A stretch of DNA of 64,000 nucleotides, taken from positions 1 to 64,000 of the forward strand of contig CASFFN010000002.1 of NCBI GenBank assembly GCA_949293985.1. The letters are read 5' to 3'. Positions 81 to 7,184 of this stretch are shown here, one piece after another. The translations under genes and the position numbers were made by a program. Under the pieces are notes generated by a model, which did no database searches, was not told the DNA's origin, and worked only from the letters and a program-made list of their open reading frames with translations. Origin of the DNA: an uncultured Eubacteriales bacterium (GTDB lineage Bacteria; Bacillota; Clostridia; Oscillospirales; Oscillospiraceae). Position 1 is the first letter of the stretch, and every line of letters begins with the position of its first letter.

Positions 81-173
81 AACTTAATGACATTGCCCTC
101 CATTCTGACTGGGGAAAAGGAGAATTTATCTAAATAGCACCCGATTTATTGGACTGTTTCTTTGATAGAGTGA

Positions 174-259
174 GGACGGTGGGAAAAGAAAATACTCTGC
201 CCCACCGTCCTTGCTACTATTCTACAAATTATTTCAATCCACAGGGCGAAGCCCCGACA
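174..259 (-). ncRNA. CreR-like single-repeat guide RNA, predicted repressor of the cas promoter
   Basis: Read on the minus strand, 258-231 is a diverged CRISPR repeat. It begins GTCG like the array repeat, has a GGGC-TTC-GCCC stem in place of the array stem, and ends in the same GTGGATTGAAAT, so the full 11-nt crRNA handle is kept. The guide starts at 230 as AATTTGTAGAATAGTA. It matches minus-strand 338-323 beside the cas promoter at positions 1-5, 7-11 and 13-16, with mismatches at 6 and 12. The target is preceded by TTC, the known type I-C PAM. A 10-bp hairpin (201-210 with 174-183) follows and may form the RNA 3' end. A divergent promoter ends 7 nt before the repeat. Known CreR RNAs of other type I and V systems direct Cascade to repress their own cas promoter by partial complementarity. 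That role is inferred here. A decayed relic repeat is the main alternative. Confidence 0.75.
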
Positions 260-265
260 ACAGAA

Positions 266-294
266 AGTATGTCATATAAAGGCTAAAAAGTCAA
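266..294 (-). promoter_or_regulatory. Promoter of the CreR-like RNA
   Basis: On the minus strand, -35 TTGACT (294-289), a 17-nt spacer and -10 CATACT (271-266). Initiation about 7 nt downstream would fall at roughly 259, at the first base of the repeat-like element. It is divergent from the cas promoter. Confidence 0.6.
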
Positions 295-322
295 TCAAAA
301 ATAAATACTGTTTGGCTTTAAT

Positions 323-341
323 TACTTTTCTATAAATTGAA
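323..341 (-). promoter_or_regulatory. Partial protospacer with TTC PAM next to the cas -35 box
   Basis: On the minus strand, TTC (341-339) is followed by AATTTATAGAAAAGTA (338-323). This equals the guide encoded at 230-215 except at positions 6 and 12. In type I Cascade every sixth guide base is flipped out and does not pair, so these mismatches should be tolerated. Complementarity stops at position 17, too short for a full R-loop, which would favour binding without cleavage. Bound Cascade would abut the cas -35 at 343 and could also cover the RNA's own promoter. Confidence 0.7.
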
Positions 342-342
342 G

Positions 343-371
343 TTGACAAATATAAATGATCGTGTTATAGT
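343..371 (+). promoter_or_regulatory. Promoter of the cas operon
   Basis: -35 TTGACA (343-348), a 17-nt spacer and -10 TATAGT (366-371), a near-consensus sigma-A promoter. The transcript would have a leader of about 70 nt before cas5c. The region is markedly AT-rich compared with the genes around it. Confidence 0.8.
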
Positions 372-447: not shown

Positions 448-1107
448 ATGTCAGTAAAGATTGAGGTTTGGGGCGACTATGGCTGCTTTGCAAGACCGGA
501 GATGAAGACGGAAAGAGTCAGTTATGATGTTATGACACCCTCTGCTGCCAGGGGGCTTTTGGACAGCATATACTTTCACCCAGGTCTGCGCTGGAAAGTG
601 AGCAGAATCCATGTATGCGCCCCCATCCGCTTCACCAACATTCGCCGCAACGAGGTGAAGGACACCATCAGCGCCAGAAGGGTGAAGACGGTAATGGAAA
701 AAGGGGGCGAGCTGTATCTGGCAGCCCCGGAGAGCATCCAACAGCGGGCAGCCATGGTGCTGCGGGATGTGCGTTATGTCATTGAGGCCCATTTTGAAAT
801 GACAGACAAGGCAAATCCCTCGGACAATCCTGGAAAATTTCAGGATATCATGCGCCGCAGGGTGGAAAAGGGACAGTTCTACCACCAGCCATATTTTGGC
901 AACCGGGAATTTCCGGCGTTTTTCCGCCCCTGCGACCGGATTCCTCCCTGCCCGGAGGAGCTGAAGGGGGAGCGGGATTTGGGCTGGATGCTGCTGGATT
1001 TGGATTATTCCAATCCGGAGAACATCATCCCCCATTTTTTCCGGGCAGTCCTGCGGGACGGTGTTTTGGAAGTGCCGCCCATGGATAGTCAGGAGGTGCG
1101 GAGATGA
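448..1107 (+). CDS. cas5c: CRISPR-associated protein Cas5c (Cas5d), type I-C
   Basis: Cas5c of type I-C replaces Cas6. It cleaves pre-crRNA at the base of the repeat stem, leaving an 11-nt 5' handle, and stays in Cascade. The 219-residue protein begins MSVKIEVWGDYGCFARPEMK and carries the conserved MTPSAARGLLDSIYF segment near residue 30, followed by PIRFTNIRRNEV. I chose the second of two in-frame ATGs (448, not 442) because the GGAG at 437-440 then sits 7 nt upstream instead of 1. It overlaps cas8c by ATGA. It is the first gene of the operon, which is odd because cas3 usually precedes it in type I-C loci. Confidence 0.93.
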   Translation: MSVKIEVWGDYGCFARPEMKTERVSYDVMTPSAARGLLDSIYFHPGLRWKVSRIHVCAPIRFTNIRRNEVKDTISARRVKTVMEKGGELYLAAPESIQQRAAMVLRDVRYVIEAHFEMTDKANPSDNPGKFQDIMRRRVEKGQFYHQPYFGNREFPAFFRPCDRIPPCPEELKGERDLGWMLLDLDYSNPENIIPHFFRAVLRDGVLEVPPMDSQEVRR

Positions 1108-2825
1108 TTTTGCAAGCATTGACCGGGTTGTTTGAAGCGTTGACCCGGAAGGGCGTGCTGTCTAAACCGGGATGGAGTTCTGTGAAAATCAGCTATGCCC
1201 TCTGCCTGGATGGGGACGGTAGGTTGGAAAGCCTGGTTCCTCGGATGCAAGAGGAAACGGTGGGCAAGAAAACGGTGCTGCGCCCACGGACTATGGAGCT
1301 TCCCGCACCGGTAACCCGTACTGTGGGAGTGCTGCCCAATTTCCTGTGGGACAATTCCAGCTATCTGCTGGGAGTAGACGGTAAGGGCAAGCCGGAGCGG
1401 AGCAAAAACTGCTTTCAGGCCTGTGCCCGGCTGCACCATCAGCTTCTGGATGAAATCGACACCCCCACAGCCAGAGGAATTTTGCGCTTTCTGGATACCT
1501 GGGAGCCGGAAAAGGCCCGGGAGAACCCGGCACTACAGGAAAGCTGGGAGGACCTGATGAAAGGCGGCAATCTGGTATTCCGGGTGGCGGGCATCTACCC
1601 CTGGGAGGACTCGGAAATCTGTGCAGCTTGGGATCGGTATTATGCTGCTGAGGAGGGTGAGACCGTTCAGTGCATGGTGACCGGGGAACAGGTGGTGCCG
1701 GAGGCGGTGCACCCTGCCATCAAGGGAGTTGCCGGTGCCCAGTCCAGCGGCGCCGCTCTGGTTTCCTTTAATGCCCCGGCCTTTTGCTCCTATGGGAAGG
1801 AGCAGAGCCTCAATGCCCCCATGGGAAAGTATGCGGCCTTTGCCTATACGGCGGCGCTGAACTACCTGCTGTCGGACCGGGAAAATGTCCAGCGCATAGG
1901 AGATACCACGGTGGTCTGTTGGGCGGAGGAGGCGGAGCCCCAATACAATCTGCTGGCAAACTTTGCCATATTCGGTATGGATACGGAAGCGCCAATCACC
2001 CGGGAGGAGTTGGTGGCAGCGGTGGGCAGACTGGCCCAGGGCCTGCCCTGTCCGGAACTGGGGGTGGAGGCCCGGCAGAATTTCTACATTCTGGGACTTG
2101 CGCCTAACTCTGCCCGGCTGTCTGTGCGGTTTTTCTACCGCAGCACCTTTGGGGAGCTGATGGCCCATGTCCGGGCCCACCACGAAAGAATGGAAATTGC
2201 GGGCAGCCGGGAGCCGATGATGCCCCTGTGGAAGCTGCTGCGGGAAACGGTGAACCTGAATTCCAAGGATAAATCCCCCAGTCCGGTGATGGCGGGGGCA
2301 GTAGCCCGGGCGATTTTTGCAGGAACAGCCTACCCTGCTTCCTTGCTGGAGGCGACCATGCTTCGCATCCGCAGTGAGCGGAACATCACCCCTGGCCGGG
2401 CAGCCATTCTGAAAGCCTACTATCTGAAAAATACCCATCCCCAATGTCCAAAGGAGGTTTTAACCGTGAGCTTGAACGAAAACAGCACCAATATTCCATA
2501 CACCCTGGGCAGGTTGTTCGCCATCTATGAGTGGGTGCAGGAAACAGCAAACCCCAAAATCAATACCACCATCAAAGACAAGTATTTCAGTTCCGCTGCT
2601 GCCACCCCGGCTACCATTTTCCCGGTGCTGGACAACCTGGCCCAGAAGCACCTGCGGAAGCTGAAACCCGGTCAGCAGGTGGATTTTGACAAGAAGATTG
2701 GGCAAATAAAAAATATACTGGGAGAAACCTATCCCGTCCGGCAGACCCTTCCGGAGCAGGGCTCTTTCAACCTGGGATATTACCATCAGAAACAAAACCG
2801 CTACACCAAGAAGGAGGAAAAGTAA
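1104..2825 (+). CDS. cas8c: CRISPR-associated protein Cas8c (Csd1), type I-C large subunit
   Basis: Large subunit of type I-C Cascade, which recognises the PAM and starts target unwinding. It has 573 residues, normal for Csd1. Its Csd1 character shows in the N-terminal MILQALTGLFEAL, the early GVLPNFLWDNSSYLLG segment (near residue 75), SFNAPAFCSYGKEQ (near 220) and the helical C-terminus. The ATG overlaps the cas5c stop as ATGA, indicating translational coupling. The C-terminal 119 codons are probably also translated separately as Cas11c from an internal ribosome binding site (see 2466-2825). Cas7c follows with almost no gap. Confidence 0.93.
   Translation: MILQALTGLFEALTRKGVLSKPGWSSVKISYALCLDGDGRLESLVPRMQEETVGKKTVLRPRTMELPAPVTRTVGVLPNFLWDNSSYLLGVDGKGKPERSKNCFQACARLHHQLLDEIDTPTARGILRFLDTWEPEKARENPALQESWEDLMKGGNLVFRVAGIYPWEDSEICAAWDRYYAAEEGETVQCMVTGEQVVPEAVHPAIKGVAGAQSSGAALVSFNAPAFCSYGKEQSLNAPMGKYAAFAYTAALNYLLSDRENVQRIGDTTVVCWAEEAEPQYNLLANFAIFGMDTEAPITREELVAAVGRLAQGLPCPELGVEARQNFYILGLAPNSARLSVRFFYRSTFGELMAHVRAHHERMEIAGSREPMMPLWKLLRETVNLNSKDKSPSPVMAGAVARAIFAGTAYPASLLEATMLRIRSERNITPGRAAILKAYYLKNTHPQCPKEVLTVSLNENSTNIPYTLGRLFAIYEWVQETANPKINTTIKDKYFSSAAATPATIFPVLDNLAQKHLRKLKPGQQVDFDKKIGQIKNILGETYPVRQTLPEQGSFNLGYYHQKQNRYTKKEEK
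2466..2825 (+). CDS. cas11c: Cas11c small subunit, internal translation product of cas8c
   Basis: Inside cas8c a strong Shine-Dalgarno, AAAGGAGG (2450-2457), stands 8 nt before an in-frame GTG at 2466 (Cas8c codon 455). This gives a 119-residue, mostly helical product starting (V/M)SLNENSTNIPYTLGRLF and ending at the cas8c stop. In the type I-C system of Desulfovibrio vulgaris the small subunit Cas11c is known to be made from an internal start in cas8c. The position and length here match that arrangement. An SD this strong inside a gene is unlikely without a purpose, but the product is predicted rather than demonstrated. Confidence 0.75.
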   Translation: MSLNENSTNIPYTLGRLFAIYEWVQETANPKINTTIKDKYFSSAAATPATIFPVLDNLAQKHLRKLKPGQQVDFDKKIGQIKNILGETYPVRQTLPEQGSFNLGYYHQKQNRYTKKEEK

Positions 2826-2826
2826 A

Positions 2827-3720
2827 ATGGCAGCCATTGAAAATCGTTATGAATTTGTTGTTTTCTTTGATGTGGAGAACGGAAACCCCAACGGCGACCC
2901 GGATGCGGGGAATATGCCCCGCATCGACCCGGAAACCGGCTACGGTCTGGTGACGGATGTGTGCCTGAAGCGGAAAATCCGCAACTATGTGGAGGCAGTG
3001 AAGGAGGGGGAGCCGGGCTATCGTATCTATGTGAAGGATGGGGTGCCCCTGAACCGAAGCGATGCAGAGGCCTGTAACCATTTTGGAGTTCCTACTGATA
3101 AGGAAAAGTTGAAGGCGGCAAAGAAGAAGGATGACAAGCTGGACGAGAAAATCCGGGATTTTATGTGTGAGCAATTCTACGATATCCGAACCTTCGGCGC
3201 CGTAATGACTACCTTTGTGAAGGGAGCGCTCAACTACGGACAGGTACGGGGACCGGTGCAGCTGGGCTTTGCCCGGAGCGTGGACCCCATCATGCCCCAG
3301 GAGGTGACCATCACCCGGGTGGCTATTACTACGGAGGAGGATGCGGAAAACAAGGAAACGGAAATGGGCAGAAAGTACATTGTGCCCTATGGCCTGTATC
3401 GGGCGGAAGGGTATGTATCCGCAAACCTGGCGAAGAAAACCACCGGCTTCACCCAGGAGGATCTGGAGCTTTTGTGGCAGGCAATCCTTAATATGTTTGA
3501 ACTGGACCGGTCCGCGGCCCGGGGAAAGATGGCGGTCCGGGAGCTGATTGTGTTCCGGCATGATTCCTCCCTGGGCAATGCGCCTGCCTACAAGCTGTTT
3601 GATTTGGTAAAGGCAGAGAAAGCGCCCCAGGTCACCACCCCCAGAGCCTACTCCGACTATACGGTTACGGTAGACGAAGCCCACCTGCCGGAGGGCGTGA
3701 CCTGTACCCGGATGGGGTGA
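2827..3720 (+). CDS. cas7c: CRISPR-associated protein Cas7c (Csd2), type I-C backbone
   Basis: Forms the helical backbone of Cascade that holds the crRNA guide. The 297-residue protein has the diagnostic N-terminus of Csd2/Csh2 proteins, FDVENGNPNGDPDAGNMPR (residues 13-31), followed by GYGLVTDVCLKRKIRNYV. Further in it has DIRTFGAVMT and GQVRGPVQLGFARS, both typical of the family. The start is preceded by AAGGAGG (2811-2817) at good spacing, two bases after the cas8c stop, as expected for a highly translated backbone subunit. It overlaps cas4 through TGATG. Confidence 0.94.
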   Translation: MAAIENRYEFVVFFDVENGNPNGDPDAGNMPRIDPETGYGLVTDVCLKRKIRNYVEAVKEGEPGYRIYVKDGVPLNRSDAEACNHFGVPTDKEKLKAAKKKDDKLDEKIRDFMCEQFYDIRTFGAVMTTFVKGALNYGQVRGPVQLGFARSVDPIMPQEVTITRVAITTEEDAENKETEMGRKYIVPYGLYRAEGYVSANLAKKTTGFTQEDLELLWQAILNMFELDRSAARGKMAVRELIVFRHDSSLGNAPAYKLFDLVKAEKAPQVTTPRAYSDYTVTVDEAHLPEGVTCTRMG

Positions 3721-4379
3721 TGTACCGGGAGGAGGACTTCCTCCAGCTTTCCGGATTGCAGCATTTTGCCTTTTGCAGGAGACAGTGGGCGCTGATTCAT
3801 ATCGAAAAGCAGTGGTCGGAAAATTACCGCACCATGGACGGCCAGATTTTCCATGAAAGAGCCCACAATCGGGAGCTGGAGGAAAGCAGGGGAAATCTGC
3901 TGATTTTCCGTGGCGTCAGTGTATTTTCTGCCGAGCTGGGGATTTCCGGGCAGTGTGATGTGGTGGAATACCGGCGTTGCGCCACCGGTATTCCCCTGGA
4001 CGGCCGGGAAGGGCTGTGGCAGCCCTTCCCGGTGGAGTACAAGCGGGGAGAACCCAAGGAAAACGCGGCGGATGCCCTGCAGTTGTGTGCCCAGGCCATG
4101 TGCCTGGAAGCCATGCTGTGCTGCCCGGTTCCGGAAGGCGCATTGTTCTACGGAGAGACCAGGCGCAGGGTGCGTGTGGTGTTCACGGAGGAGCTGCGCT
4201 GCCGGGTGAAAGAAATGCTTGCCCAGATGCATGAATGGTACAGCCGGGGGCACACGCCCAAGGTGAAGCCCACAAAATCCTGCAATGCCTGTTCGCTGAA
4301 GGATTTGTGCTTGCCCAAGCTGATGAAGCAGCGGCCGGTGACCGCTTATCTGAAAGCCGCCATGGAGGAAGACCTATGA
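3720..4379 (+). CDS. cas4: CRISPR-associated exonuclease Cas4
   Basis: RecB-family nuclease with an iron-sulphur cluster that helps trim prespacers and choose their PAM during adaptation. The 219-residue protein has FCRRQWALIHIE near residue 20, which supplies the first cluster cysteine. It has GQCDVVEY and the nuclease core FPVEYKRG (near residues 80-108), and a C-terminal CNACSLKDLC triplet of cluster cysteines (near 181-190). The ATG overlaps the cas7c stop as TGATG; a GTG one codon upstream is possible. It overlaps cas1 by ATGA. The adaptation module is therefore translationally coupled to the effector module. Confidence 0.92.
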   Translation: MYREEDFLQLSGLQHFAFCRRQWALIHIEKQWSENYRTMDGQIFHERAHNRELEESRGNLLIFRGVSVFSAELGISGQCDVVEYRRCATGIPLDGREGLWQPFPVEYKRGEPKENAADALQLCAQAMCLEAMLCCPVPEGALFYGETRRRVRVVFTEELRCRVKEMLAQMHEWYSRGHTPKVKPTKSCNACSLKDLCLPKLMKQRPVTAYLKAAMEEDL

Positions 4380-5407
4380 AACAGCTGCTCAATACCTTGT
4401 TTGTAACCTCGGAGGATGTGTACCTCTCCCTGGAGGGGGAAAATGTGCTGGCGAACAAAGATGGTCAGGTGGTGGCCCGGTATCCGCTGCACACCCTGCA
4501 AACCATTGTGAGCTTTTCCTATTCCGGAGCTTCTCCGGCGCTGATGGGGGCCTGTGCCGGACGGGGAATCGGTCTGGCTCTCTGCACCCCCAGAGGCAGG
4601 TTTCTTGCCCGGGTCTGCGGAGAAAACAGCGGTAATGTGCTGTTGCGCAGAACCCAGTACCGGATGGCGGACGACCCGGCTGCGGGCTTGGCAATCGCCA
4701 GGCATATGATTTTCGGAAAAATCCGCAACAGCGCCGCTGTGATACAGCGGACACTCCGGGATCATGGCCCCAGGGTCACAGGCTGCGGCCTGGAGGATAC
4801 GGTTGGCCAGTTGAAGGCCCTGTTGCCCCAGGTTCTGGAAGCGGCGGACGAAAAAACGCTGCGAGGGCTGGAGGGAGTGGGAGCTTCTGCCTACTTTCAG
4901 GTATTTGACAACCTTCTGCTGAACCGAAAGGAGGAATTTTTCTTCCACGGAAGAAACCGCCGTCCCCCTCTGGACCGGGTAAATGCCATGCTGTCCTTTG
5001 CATACAGCTTGCTTGCCCATGATTGCGGCAGCGCTTTGGAAAGCGTGGGACTGGATTCCTATGTGGGCTTTCTCCATGCGGACCGTCCGGGACGGGCTTC
5101 CCTGGCGCTGGATTTGATGGAGGAGCTGCGGCCCTGCATGGCGGATCGCTTTGTGCTGACGCTTGTGAATAACCGCATGGTGAAGCCGGAGGATTTTCAG
5201 CGGGAGGACAGCGGAGCGGTGCTGCTGACGGACAGCGGCCGGAAGCTGTTTCTGAAAGCCTGGCAGGAGAGAAAGCGGGATACCTTGACCCACCCCTATT
5301 TGGGAGAGAAAATCCAGTGGGGAATGGTTCCGTATATGCAGGCCCTGCTGCTGGCCCGGTATCTCCGGGGTGACACGGATGCCTATCCGCCGTTTGTATG
5401 GAAGTGA
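4376..5407 (+). CDS. cas1: CRISPR-associated integrase Cas1
   Basis: Metal-dependent integrase that, with Cas2, inserts new spacers at the leader end of the array. The 343-residue protein starts [18 protein letters not shown], as type I-C Cas1 proteins do. The beta-rich N-terminal domain runs to about residue 85. The catalytic helical domain includes [15 protein letters not shown] and [19 protein letters not shown], which holds the active-site histidine and acidic residues. I used the ATG overlapping the cas4 stop (ATGA) rather than the upstream open extension, which is not conserved-looking. Cas2 begins 4 nt after the stop. Confidence 0.94.
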
Positions 5408-5411
5408 TAAG

Positions 5412-5702
5412 ATGTTGGTACTGATTACATATGATGTGAATACGGAGGACGGCGCCGGGAAAAAGCGGCTGCGCCAGATTGCGAAAAAGTGCGTGGATTA
5501 CGGACAACGGGTACAGAACTCCGTGTTTGAATGCAGTCTGGATGCGGCCCAATGCCGGCGTTTGCAGGCTCAGCTGCTAAAAATTATGGATGGGGAAAAA
5601 GACAGCCTGCGCTTTTACTACCTGGGAAACAACTATGAAAAGAAAGTGGAACACTTTGGCGCTAAGAGCGCCCATTTGCCGAATGACACGCTGATGGTTT
5701 GA
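5412..5702 (+). CDS. cas2: CRISPR-associated protein Cas2
   Basis: Small dimeric scaffold of the Cas1-Cas2 integrase. The 96-residue protein begins [20 protein letters not shown], with the characteristic ferredoxin-fold beta1 and YDV. It continues with [14 protein letters not shown] and SLRFYYLGN, both conserved in the family. It is the last gene of the cas operon, 4 nt after cas1, and the array leader begins at its stop codon. Confidence 0.94.
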
Positions 5703-5872
5703 TTGCGAAGCCCGGGCAAACAGAAAATCCCCGGCAGGTTCGCACCGCTTTTTGATGGGAAACACCCCGCACAAAAGCAGCTGCCGGAGATGAAAAGGAG
5801 GAGATTTGTAGAAAAATTCTATTTTGCAAAGAATATCGCCAGTCCCGGCAGTGTTCTTTGTCTATTTTTGCA
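5703..5872 (+). promoter_or_regulatory. CRISPR leader
   Basis: A 170-nt non-coding stretch between the cas2 stop and the first repeat, becoming AT-rich towards the array. Its position on the cas side, opposite the degenerate terminal repeat, marks it as the leader that carries the array promoter and the site of new spacer insertion. I could not pick a convincing promoter by eye. An AAAAGGAGGAG at about 5794 looks like an SD but no plausible gene follows. Confidence 0.6.
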
Positions 5873-7115
5873 GTCGCTCCCCACAAGGGGAGCGTGGATT
5901 GAAATGGTGACAATTGGGAAGCGTTGAGAAACATTCTGGGTCGCTCCCCACAAGGGGAGCGTGGATTGAAATAACCAATCCCCGCGACAGCCTCCCCAAC
6001 GTCTAGTCGCTCCCCACAAGGGGAGCGTGGATTGAAATCTGGAGAAGAAGGTCATAAACGATGAACGCATAGAGTCGCTCCCCACAAGGGGAGCGTGGAT
6101 TGAAATACCTGCCCGTCCGGCTCCACCACATCTCCGATTCGTCGCTCCCCACAAGGGGAGCGTGGATTGAAATGATAAGGGTTTCAAAATTGATAACCCA
6201 CAGATCGTCGCTCCCCACAAGGGGAGCGTGGATTGAAATTCATCGCTGTCAATGAAGAACGCACCACGCATAGAGTCGCTCCCCACAAGGGGAGCGTGGA
6301 TTGAAATTGCGCTATCCATATGATGAACGCCCTGTCCACCGGGTCGCTCCCCACAAGGGGAGCGTGGATTGAAATTGCTATCTTGAAATATGGTTGGGAT
6401 TCTTTTTCAGTCGCTCCCCACAAGGGGAGCGTGGATTGAAATACAGGCAAAACTCCGGCGTTTACACGGGGCCGTGTCGCTCCCCACAAGGGGAGCGTGG
6501 ATTGAAATTCCAAACTGTACTGACCGTTTGCATTGTAGCTGGTCGCTCCCCACAAGGGGAGCGTGGATTGAAATGGCTTGCGGTGATTGAAACAAAGCTG
6601 GGTCAAATGTCGCTCCCCACAAGGGGAGCGTGGATTGAAATACTGGCGTCCTTTAATCAGAAAGCCCAAGACGCAGTCGCTCCCCACAAGGGGAGCGTGG
6701 ATTGAAATATAATAATACCTCCAAAAGTTAAAAATGTTTGAGTCGCTCCCCACAAGGGGAGCGTGGATTGAAATTGAATGCAGACATATAAAAACCAATT
6801 AAGGAGGAGTCGCTCCCCACAAGGGGAGCGTGGATTGAAATTAACTTTTTGGCTGCATAAACCCCATATTTACCCGTCGCTCCCCACAAGGGGAGCGTGG
6901 ATTGAAATTGTAAAGCTGGTCTAAAGACATGGTCCGAATCTGGTCGGGGTTGCTCCCCACAAGGGGAGCGTGGATTGAAATCAGTTCATTTCCTCGTCCC
7001 CCTGCCACAAAACTTGTCGCTCCCCACAAGGGGAGCGTGGATTGAAATCGGCCATACAATGGGCTTTCTATCGCAGCGGGCTGTCGCTCCCCGCAAGGGG
7101 AGTGGGGGTAGGATT
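5873..7115 (+). CRISPR. Type I-C CRISPR array, 19 repeats and 18 spacers
   Basis: The repeat is 33 nt: it starts GTCGCTCCCC, has an ACAA loop and GGGGAG arm, and ends CGTGGATTGAAAT, as type I-C repeats do. Repeats begin at 5873, 5940, 6006, 6074, 6141, 6207, 6275, 6343, 6410, 6476, 6542, 6609, 6676, 6742, 6809, 6876, 6949, 7016 and 7083. The first sixteen and the eighteenth look identical. The seventeenth has GTTG for GTCG. The last (7083) keeps the hairpin but loses the 3' end, marking the leader-distal end. Spacers are 33-35 nt except the sixteenth (6909-6948), which is 40 nt. Spacer targets cannot be named without a search. Confidence 0.98.
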
Positions 7116-7184
7116 TGGGGACAGCTTTTGCTGCCTGAAAACTGCCTGTGGGCGGTATGGCGGTTATTTTTTGGAAAACAACGG

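Follow-up and report, generated by a model that had tools for sequence, protein, structure and literature searches.

A candidate type I-C CreR: a single-repeat guide RNA predicted to let Cascade repress its own cas operon

Results

Organization of the type I-C locus

The window, which is the whole stretch of 64,000 nucleotides that was analysed, starts at a contig end. A type I-C operon with the gene order cas5c-cas8c-cas7-cas4-cas1-cas2 follows closely, and behind it lies the CRISPR array. The tail of cas3 reaches into the window, with its stop at about 131. Between this tail and cas5c an element was found on the minus strand, consisting of promoter-like boxes, a degenerate repeat, a guide and a hairpin. 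The features are as follows.

173 to 211, minus strand: hairpin of 12 pairs, proposed as RNA 3' end or terminator (score 30.5, compared with shuffles)
214 to 230, minus strand: predicted functional guide, 17 nt, AATTTGTAGAATAGTAG (14/15 informative positions match the target; the match in the family ends at 17)
231 to 258, minus strand: degenerate single CRISPR repeat, 28 nt, GTCGGGGCTTCGCCCTGTGGATTGAAAT (by comparison with the array repeat)
266 to 294, minus strand: putative creR promoter, TTGACT (294-289), 17 nt, extended -10 TG-A-CATACT (271-266) (9/12 in a consensus scan)
322 to 338, minus strand: target protospacer of the guide, AATTTATAGAAAAGTAA (by sequence match)
339 to 341, minus strand: TTC PAM, GAA when read on the plus strand (by sequence)
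343 to 371, plus strand: cas promoter, TTGACA (343-348), 17 nt, TATAGT (366-371) (11/12 to consensus)
448 to 1107, plus strand: cas5c, likely the crRNA-processing subunit and first gene of the operon proposed to be controlled (TIGR01876, E 5e-47)
1104 to 2825, plus strand: cas8c/csd1 (TIGR01863, E 4e-132)
2827 to 3720, plus strand: cas7/csd2 (TIGR02589, E 2e-106)
3717 to 5702, plus strand: cas4 (3717-4379), cas1c (about 4376-5407) and cas2 (about 5412-5702) (TIGR00372, TIGR03640, TIGR01573)
5873 to 7118, plus strand: CRISPR array with 33-nt repeats, the last copy degenerate (by array sequence)

The Cascade genes downstream of the element are complete, and the start of cas5c is more likely the ATG at 448, preceded by AAGGAAAGGAG, than the one at 442. 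The array repeat is GTCGCTCCCCACAAGGGGAGCGTGGATTGAAAT, and its 18 spacers measure 33-35 nt as judged from the repeat spacing. In the final repeat (7083-7118) the 3' half has decayed, with GTGGGGGTAGGATTT replacing GTGGATTGAAAT, as is usual for the trailing end of an array. The cas leader (378-447) has a potential hairpin, GATAC-CTGA-GTATC, inside GGCGGT..AGCCGC. The leaders of two loci from the same genus (L013 and L096) have inverted repeats too, unrelated in sequence to this one.

The rest of cas3 lies on another contig of the same genome and has its own apparent promoter. A second target of the guide was sought at this promoter and none was found, and cas3 would therefore escape creR control. 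A mobile element lies in the last codons of cas3 (1-101 in the window; 1-93 in L007, contig C37 of the same genome), and keeps cas3 apart from creR and the other operon genes. At least five other contigs carry its first 95-99 bases, it is accompanied by an apparent 10-bp target duplication (CCCTCCATTC), and it swaps the cas3 C-terminus SDWGKGEFI for NVIKLVTLS. With its last codons replaced, cas3 may not provide full immunity in this genome.

Anatomy of the element

The initial annotation described a diverged single repeat on the minus strand (258-231) that keeps GTCG and the 3' end of the array repeat, and this is indeed seen: GTCG and the last 12 bases are retained. The stem, CGGGGC (256-251) with GCCCTG (247-242), is shortened in comparison to the array repeat, and the 11-nt handle TGGATTGAAAT (241-231) begins exactly where the stem ends. 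Type I-C crRNAs are made by Cas5c/Cas5d, with a handle of 11 nt and canonical guides of 33 nt (PMC5965380). The promoter attributed to the element (TTGACT, 17 nt, CATACT) was located at 294-266. Its -10 box is imperfect and is preceded by TG, transcription would be expected to start near 259-258, and the boxes are conserved in L013 and L096.

No second repeat was found after the guide; there is a hairpin instead. Previously described as a 10-bp hairpin 20 nt into the guide, it does lie there (guide nt 20 to 58), but its stem has 12 pairs. Its score of 30.5 compares with a mean of 15.3 and a maximum of 26 for shuffles. The hairpin of the window is without a clean T-run and could belong to cas3. 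An Rfam search gave no match.

The guide matches a site at the cas promoter

The target lies one base upstream of the cas -35 box TTGACA (343-348). The annotated match was reproduced to the base: 14/16 of guide positions 1-16 pair, the mismatches are at 6 and 12 only, and TTC stands immediately 5' of the target. Position 17 is also mismatched. Positions 6 and 12 are the bases displaced by Cas7 subunits in type I Cascades, and without them the score is 14/15 informative matches. Among 200,000 shuffled guides none reached 14/15 at the eight TTC sites of the region, the best score being 13 (16 times), and the 18 array spacers reached at most 9/15. The target pattern with at most two mismatches occurs once in the 2.06-Mb genome.

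A family of elements in other type I-C loci

With Cas5c as query 80 type I-C loci were fetched, and the sole criterion for the first candidates was that the minus strand upstream of cas5c should hold a sequence whose 3' end resembles the repeat. This gave 25 distinct candidate guides. Of these, 22 find a TTC-flanked match upstream of cas in their own locus, at 10-15 of 15 informative bases, and 19 of the 22 score 14 or 15. The match is thus not lost in relatives that keep both guide and target. When the best match was sought with no demand for a PAM, all 22 adjoined TTC, having originally been chosen by a TTC-flanked match. With loci from whole-genome searches and from a wider scan the number of distinct elements rose to 31: that of the window and 30 from other type I-C loci, mostly of Clostridia. 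The nine later elements were selected partly on match score, which makes 22/25 the fairer measure of conservation. At no stage was an element selected on positions 6, 12 or 18-34.

Over the 31 elements 437/465 informative bases are paired: 154/155 at positions 1-5, 150/155 at 7-11 and 133/155 at 13-17. Pairing is relaxed at position 6 (12/31) and position 12 (6/31), and at positions 18-34 it is at background (118/527, 22%), so that the paired part is about half of the canonical guide length. The best match adjoins TTC in 31/31 elements. The guide sequences differ between loci, each matching its own locus in this same pattern, and guides swapped onto the regions of other loci scored 11 or lower in 458/462 trials. 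Applied to the remainder of the window in 15 chunks, the search for elements had no hit. Neither chance nor simple duplication would be expected to produce, again and again, a match beside TTC that ends at 17 and leaves out 6 and 12.

A short direct duplication, or a promoter motif common to guide and target, could be imagined with no RNA involved, as the two are direct repeats in most loci. However, the match always follows a repeat-like handle and a TTC, and in 5/24 tabulated loci the target is on the opposite strand, which makes such an origin extremely improbable. The place of the target varies among loci: next to the -35 box, across the promoter or a little downstream of the presumed start.

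The handle is conserved among the elements, and the stem persists through changes of sequence: in 15/31 elements at least 4 strict Watson-Crick pairs close at the handle, as compared to an average of 1.4 and a maximum of 7 in shuffles. A hairpin in place of the second repeat, as proposed for the 3' end in the window, turned out to be a trait of the family. It begins at a median of guide nt 24 and ends at a median of nt 58, a similar distance in nearly all elements, and often has a T-run. T-runs are only moderately richer on the creR side of the hairpin (4.9 vs 3.8 per 10 bases), and the hairpin could be purely a cas3 terminator. The cas3-cas5c gap, measured to the last cas3 match, has a median of 299 bases with the element and 88 without it; the element thus behaves like a regulatory cassette inserted into the locus.

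Many type I-C loci, some of the same genus, lack the element, and relaxed and repeat-free searches there gave nothing convincing; its absence from these loci is mostly real and indicates that it is dispensable. No element was found in the type I-C plasmid loci of Nitratidesulfovibrio, Zymomonas, Thermus, Brevibacillus, Treponema and Geminicoccaceae. One Pelosinus type I-C locus (L086) has its element on the plus strand and far from cas5c, about 2846 bases upstream, and the guide matches 14/15 beside TTC. This element is probably placed before cas3 and may control the whole operon including cas3.

Covariation of guide and target

L013 is the closest counterpart of the window, and in these two loci and L096 the element promoter, repeat and flanks align. 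Between the window and L013 the guide differs at positions 4 (T/A), 5 (T/A), 9 (G/A), 15 (T/C) and 16 (A/T), and the target differs identically at all five. Position 6 has changed in the target only and position 12 in the guide only. Element and target thus covary in related genomes, with five compensating changes at this close range.

These changes bear on the reading that the element has no role today and is a relic, either a worn-out mini-array or a self-targeting spacer of the ordinary kind. The single degenerate repeat and the patchy occurrence agree with a relic, as does L019, which keeps the repeat with a poorer match (13/15 beside TTT). A relic would not be expected to mirror its guide changes in the target, nor to keep 437/465 informative bases paired over 31 loci while positions 6, 12 and 18 onwards drift, and we regard this origin as very unlikely. 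The L019 element (4780 downwards, minus strand) has a clear degenerate repeat and a terminator hairpin, and is perhaps decaying or retargeted.

Loci with a candidate repressed toxin

Three loci, L057 (Roseburia porci), L068 and L084, differ in that the promoter matched by the guide lies about 1 kb before cas5c, with two genes in between. One encodes a DUF3990 protein (PF13151, E 8e-47) that matches PADLOC PDC-M10A (E 1e-75), and its partner matches PDC-M10B (E 2e-67). DUF3990 is listed in the ADP-ribosyltransferase clan (PMC7955679). The pair lies between the guide-targeted promoter and cas5c at the following positions.

L057, about 5108-5996: DUF3990 (PDC-M10A) and partner (PDC-M10B)
L068, 4668-5559: DUF3990 (PDC-M10A) and partner (PDC-M10B)
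L084, 2103-2991: DUF3990 (PDC-M10A) and partner (PDC-M10B)

Candidate toxin genes were found in these three loci only. In L069, where the guide is kept with a weaker match, only the last codons of the partner remain, and L074 keeps a fragment of the partner gene; these remnants suggest that some plain autoregulators may have arisen by toxin loss. By comparison with CrePA, the DUF3990 pair looks like a candidate CRISPR-repressed protein toxin or defence module, similar in principle and with a different protein.

Discussion

Known cas-regulating RNAs. According to PMC13131331, CreR is known for types I-B, I-E and V-A (as cited there), and PMC12737573 calls it widespread in type I; it is described as the product of a mini-CRISPR. 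The element shares with CreR a predicted crRNA-like RNA and a degenerate repeat beside the cas operon that retains the crRNA 5' handle, as seen in the window and in the handles of the 31 elements, and its guide is partly complementary to the cas promoter next to the PAM of the subtype. In contrast to CreR, the window is type I-C and has a Cas5c-type handle instead of a Cas6 product, and a single repeat is present instead of two flanking ones, with a 17-nt match in three blocks and then a hairpin.

The creA of H. hispanica (type I-B) has a single repeat plus terminator, so this form is not wholly new, and since CreA is known with one repeat (PMC8501985), the one-repeat form marks a variant of CreR. 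CreA of CreTA further resembles the element in its degenerate repeat, 3' terminator, TTC PAM and pairing at 1-5 and 7-11. It differs in that its target is a toxin promoter and that of the window the cas promoter, and in that the elements described here pair a third block (13-17) and have a hairpin-type 3' end.

In another reading the element would act as antitoxin (CreA) to a toxin repressed by CRISPR: the silenced promoter would make, besides the cas transcript, a small toxic RNA or peptide from the leader that precedes cas5c, and losing Cascade would harm the cell. CreTA and CrePA share the guide logic (PMC8501985, PMC12737573), and in L057, L068 and L084 the targeted promoter drives the DUF3990 gene and its partner ahead of cas5c. 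These three related loci resemble CrePA in having a candidate protein toxin behind the silenced promoter, whereas CreP is a KilA-N protein (PMC12737573). The window has no such gene: mini-ORFs aside, none of the CreTA/CrePA kind lies between 371 and 448, and its promoter leads straight into cas5c, with about 70 bases from the -10 box to the cas5c start. For the window an antitoxin role is therefore improbable.

A further reading takes the element as a solitary-repeat decoy that ties up Cas proteins and guides nothing, in the manner of the RNA anti-CRISPRs (Racr) that, according to PMC10651486, are solitary repeats in viral genomes. The single repeat-like unit is common to both. However, the element of the window lies inside the cas cluster, between the cas3 tail and cas5c and not in a virus or mobile element, and carries a conserved guide under selection to match the cas promoter; we give a decoy almost no credence. 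Chance, direct duplication, relic, Racr and toxin-antitoxin readings all rank below a type I-C CreR.

We consider it very likely, from the DNA sequence, that the element is a type I-C CreR, a cas-regulating RNA through which Cascade represses its own cas operon. This agrees with the autoregulation originally proposed for the type I-C cas promoter, which the matching of guides and targets across the family and their coevolution now support at the level of sequence. The self-matching guide device itself is very probably real and widespread. Anatomy, conservation and guide-target coevolution are read directly from the loci; we infer transcription, processing, loading and binding, repression and the absence of cutting. 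A short RNA would start at the degenerate repeat and be cleaved by Cas5c at the foot of the small stem, which would give a normal 11-nt handle. The processed RNA would be built into Cascade, and three 5-nt blocks of its 17-nt guide would pair at the TTC-flanked site next to the cas -35 box. By analogy with CreR (PMC13131331, PMC12737573) and CreA (PMC8501985), Cascade carrying the RNA would occupy the cas promoter and so block transcription from it. The pairing may be too short to license cutting by Cas3, so that transcription of cas5-cas8c-cas7-cas4-cas1-cas2 would be blocked and the chromosome spared.

The feedback logic is taken from published CreR work. Free Cascade would shut its own operon, and array crRNAs or anti-CRISPR proteins that occupy or disable Cascade would relieve it, a circuit by which cas expression would go up whenever the system is engaged or attacked. 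The RNA was also suggested to limit itself. This is possible, with weak support in the window, as a 33-nt footprint would end about 12 bp before the -35 box of the element; in L018 (Butyricicoccus pullicaecorum), L022 and L026 the footprint would take in this box or border on it.

The target logic is known, and what differs is the subtype, the Cas5c-type handle, the single repeat with a hairpin end and the three-block 17-nt guide. RNA-guided control of a type I-C operon was not described in the literature searched, in which CreR and type I-C were not combined and one review mentions both apart; the primary CreR paper was outside this search. More tentatively, and with somewhat less than even confidence, gut Clostridia may hold an interchangeable cassette between cas3 and cas5c of type I-C loci, made of a single-repeat guide RNA with a 17-nt three-block guide and a hairpin, which controls either cas alone or also the DUF3990/PDC-M10 pair, some plain autoregulators having arisen by toxin loss. 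If so, blocking Cascade would release new Cas proteins, and a toxin where the pair is present.

Type I-C is one of the commonest CRISPR subtypes. A type I-C CreR would mean that autorepression of cas genes also occurs in a system without Cas6, and in many gut bacteria; the carriers include the cultured species Butyricicoccus pullicaecorum, Fusicatenibacter saccharivorans, Roseburia porci and Eubacterium barkeri. The natural variation among the loci gives a base-resolution view of the pairing that is kept, 5+5+5 with 6 and 12 relaxed and nothing beyond 17. It is also predicted that anti-CRISPR proteins against type I-C Cascade would raise cas expression.
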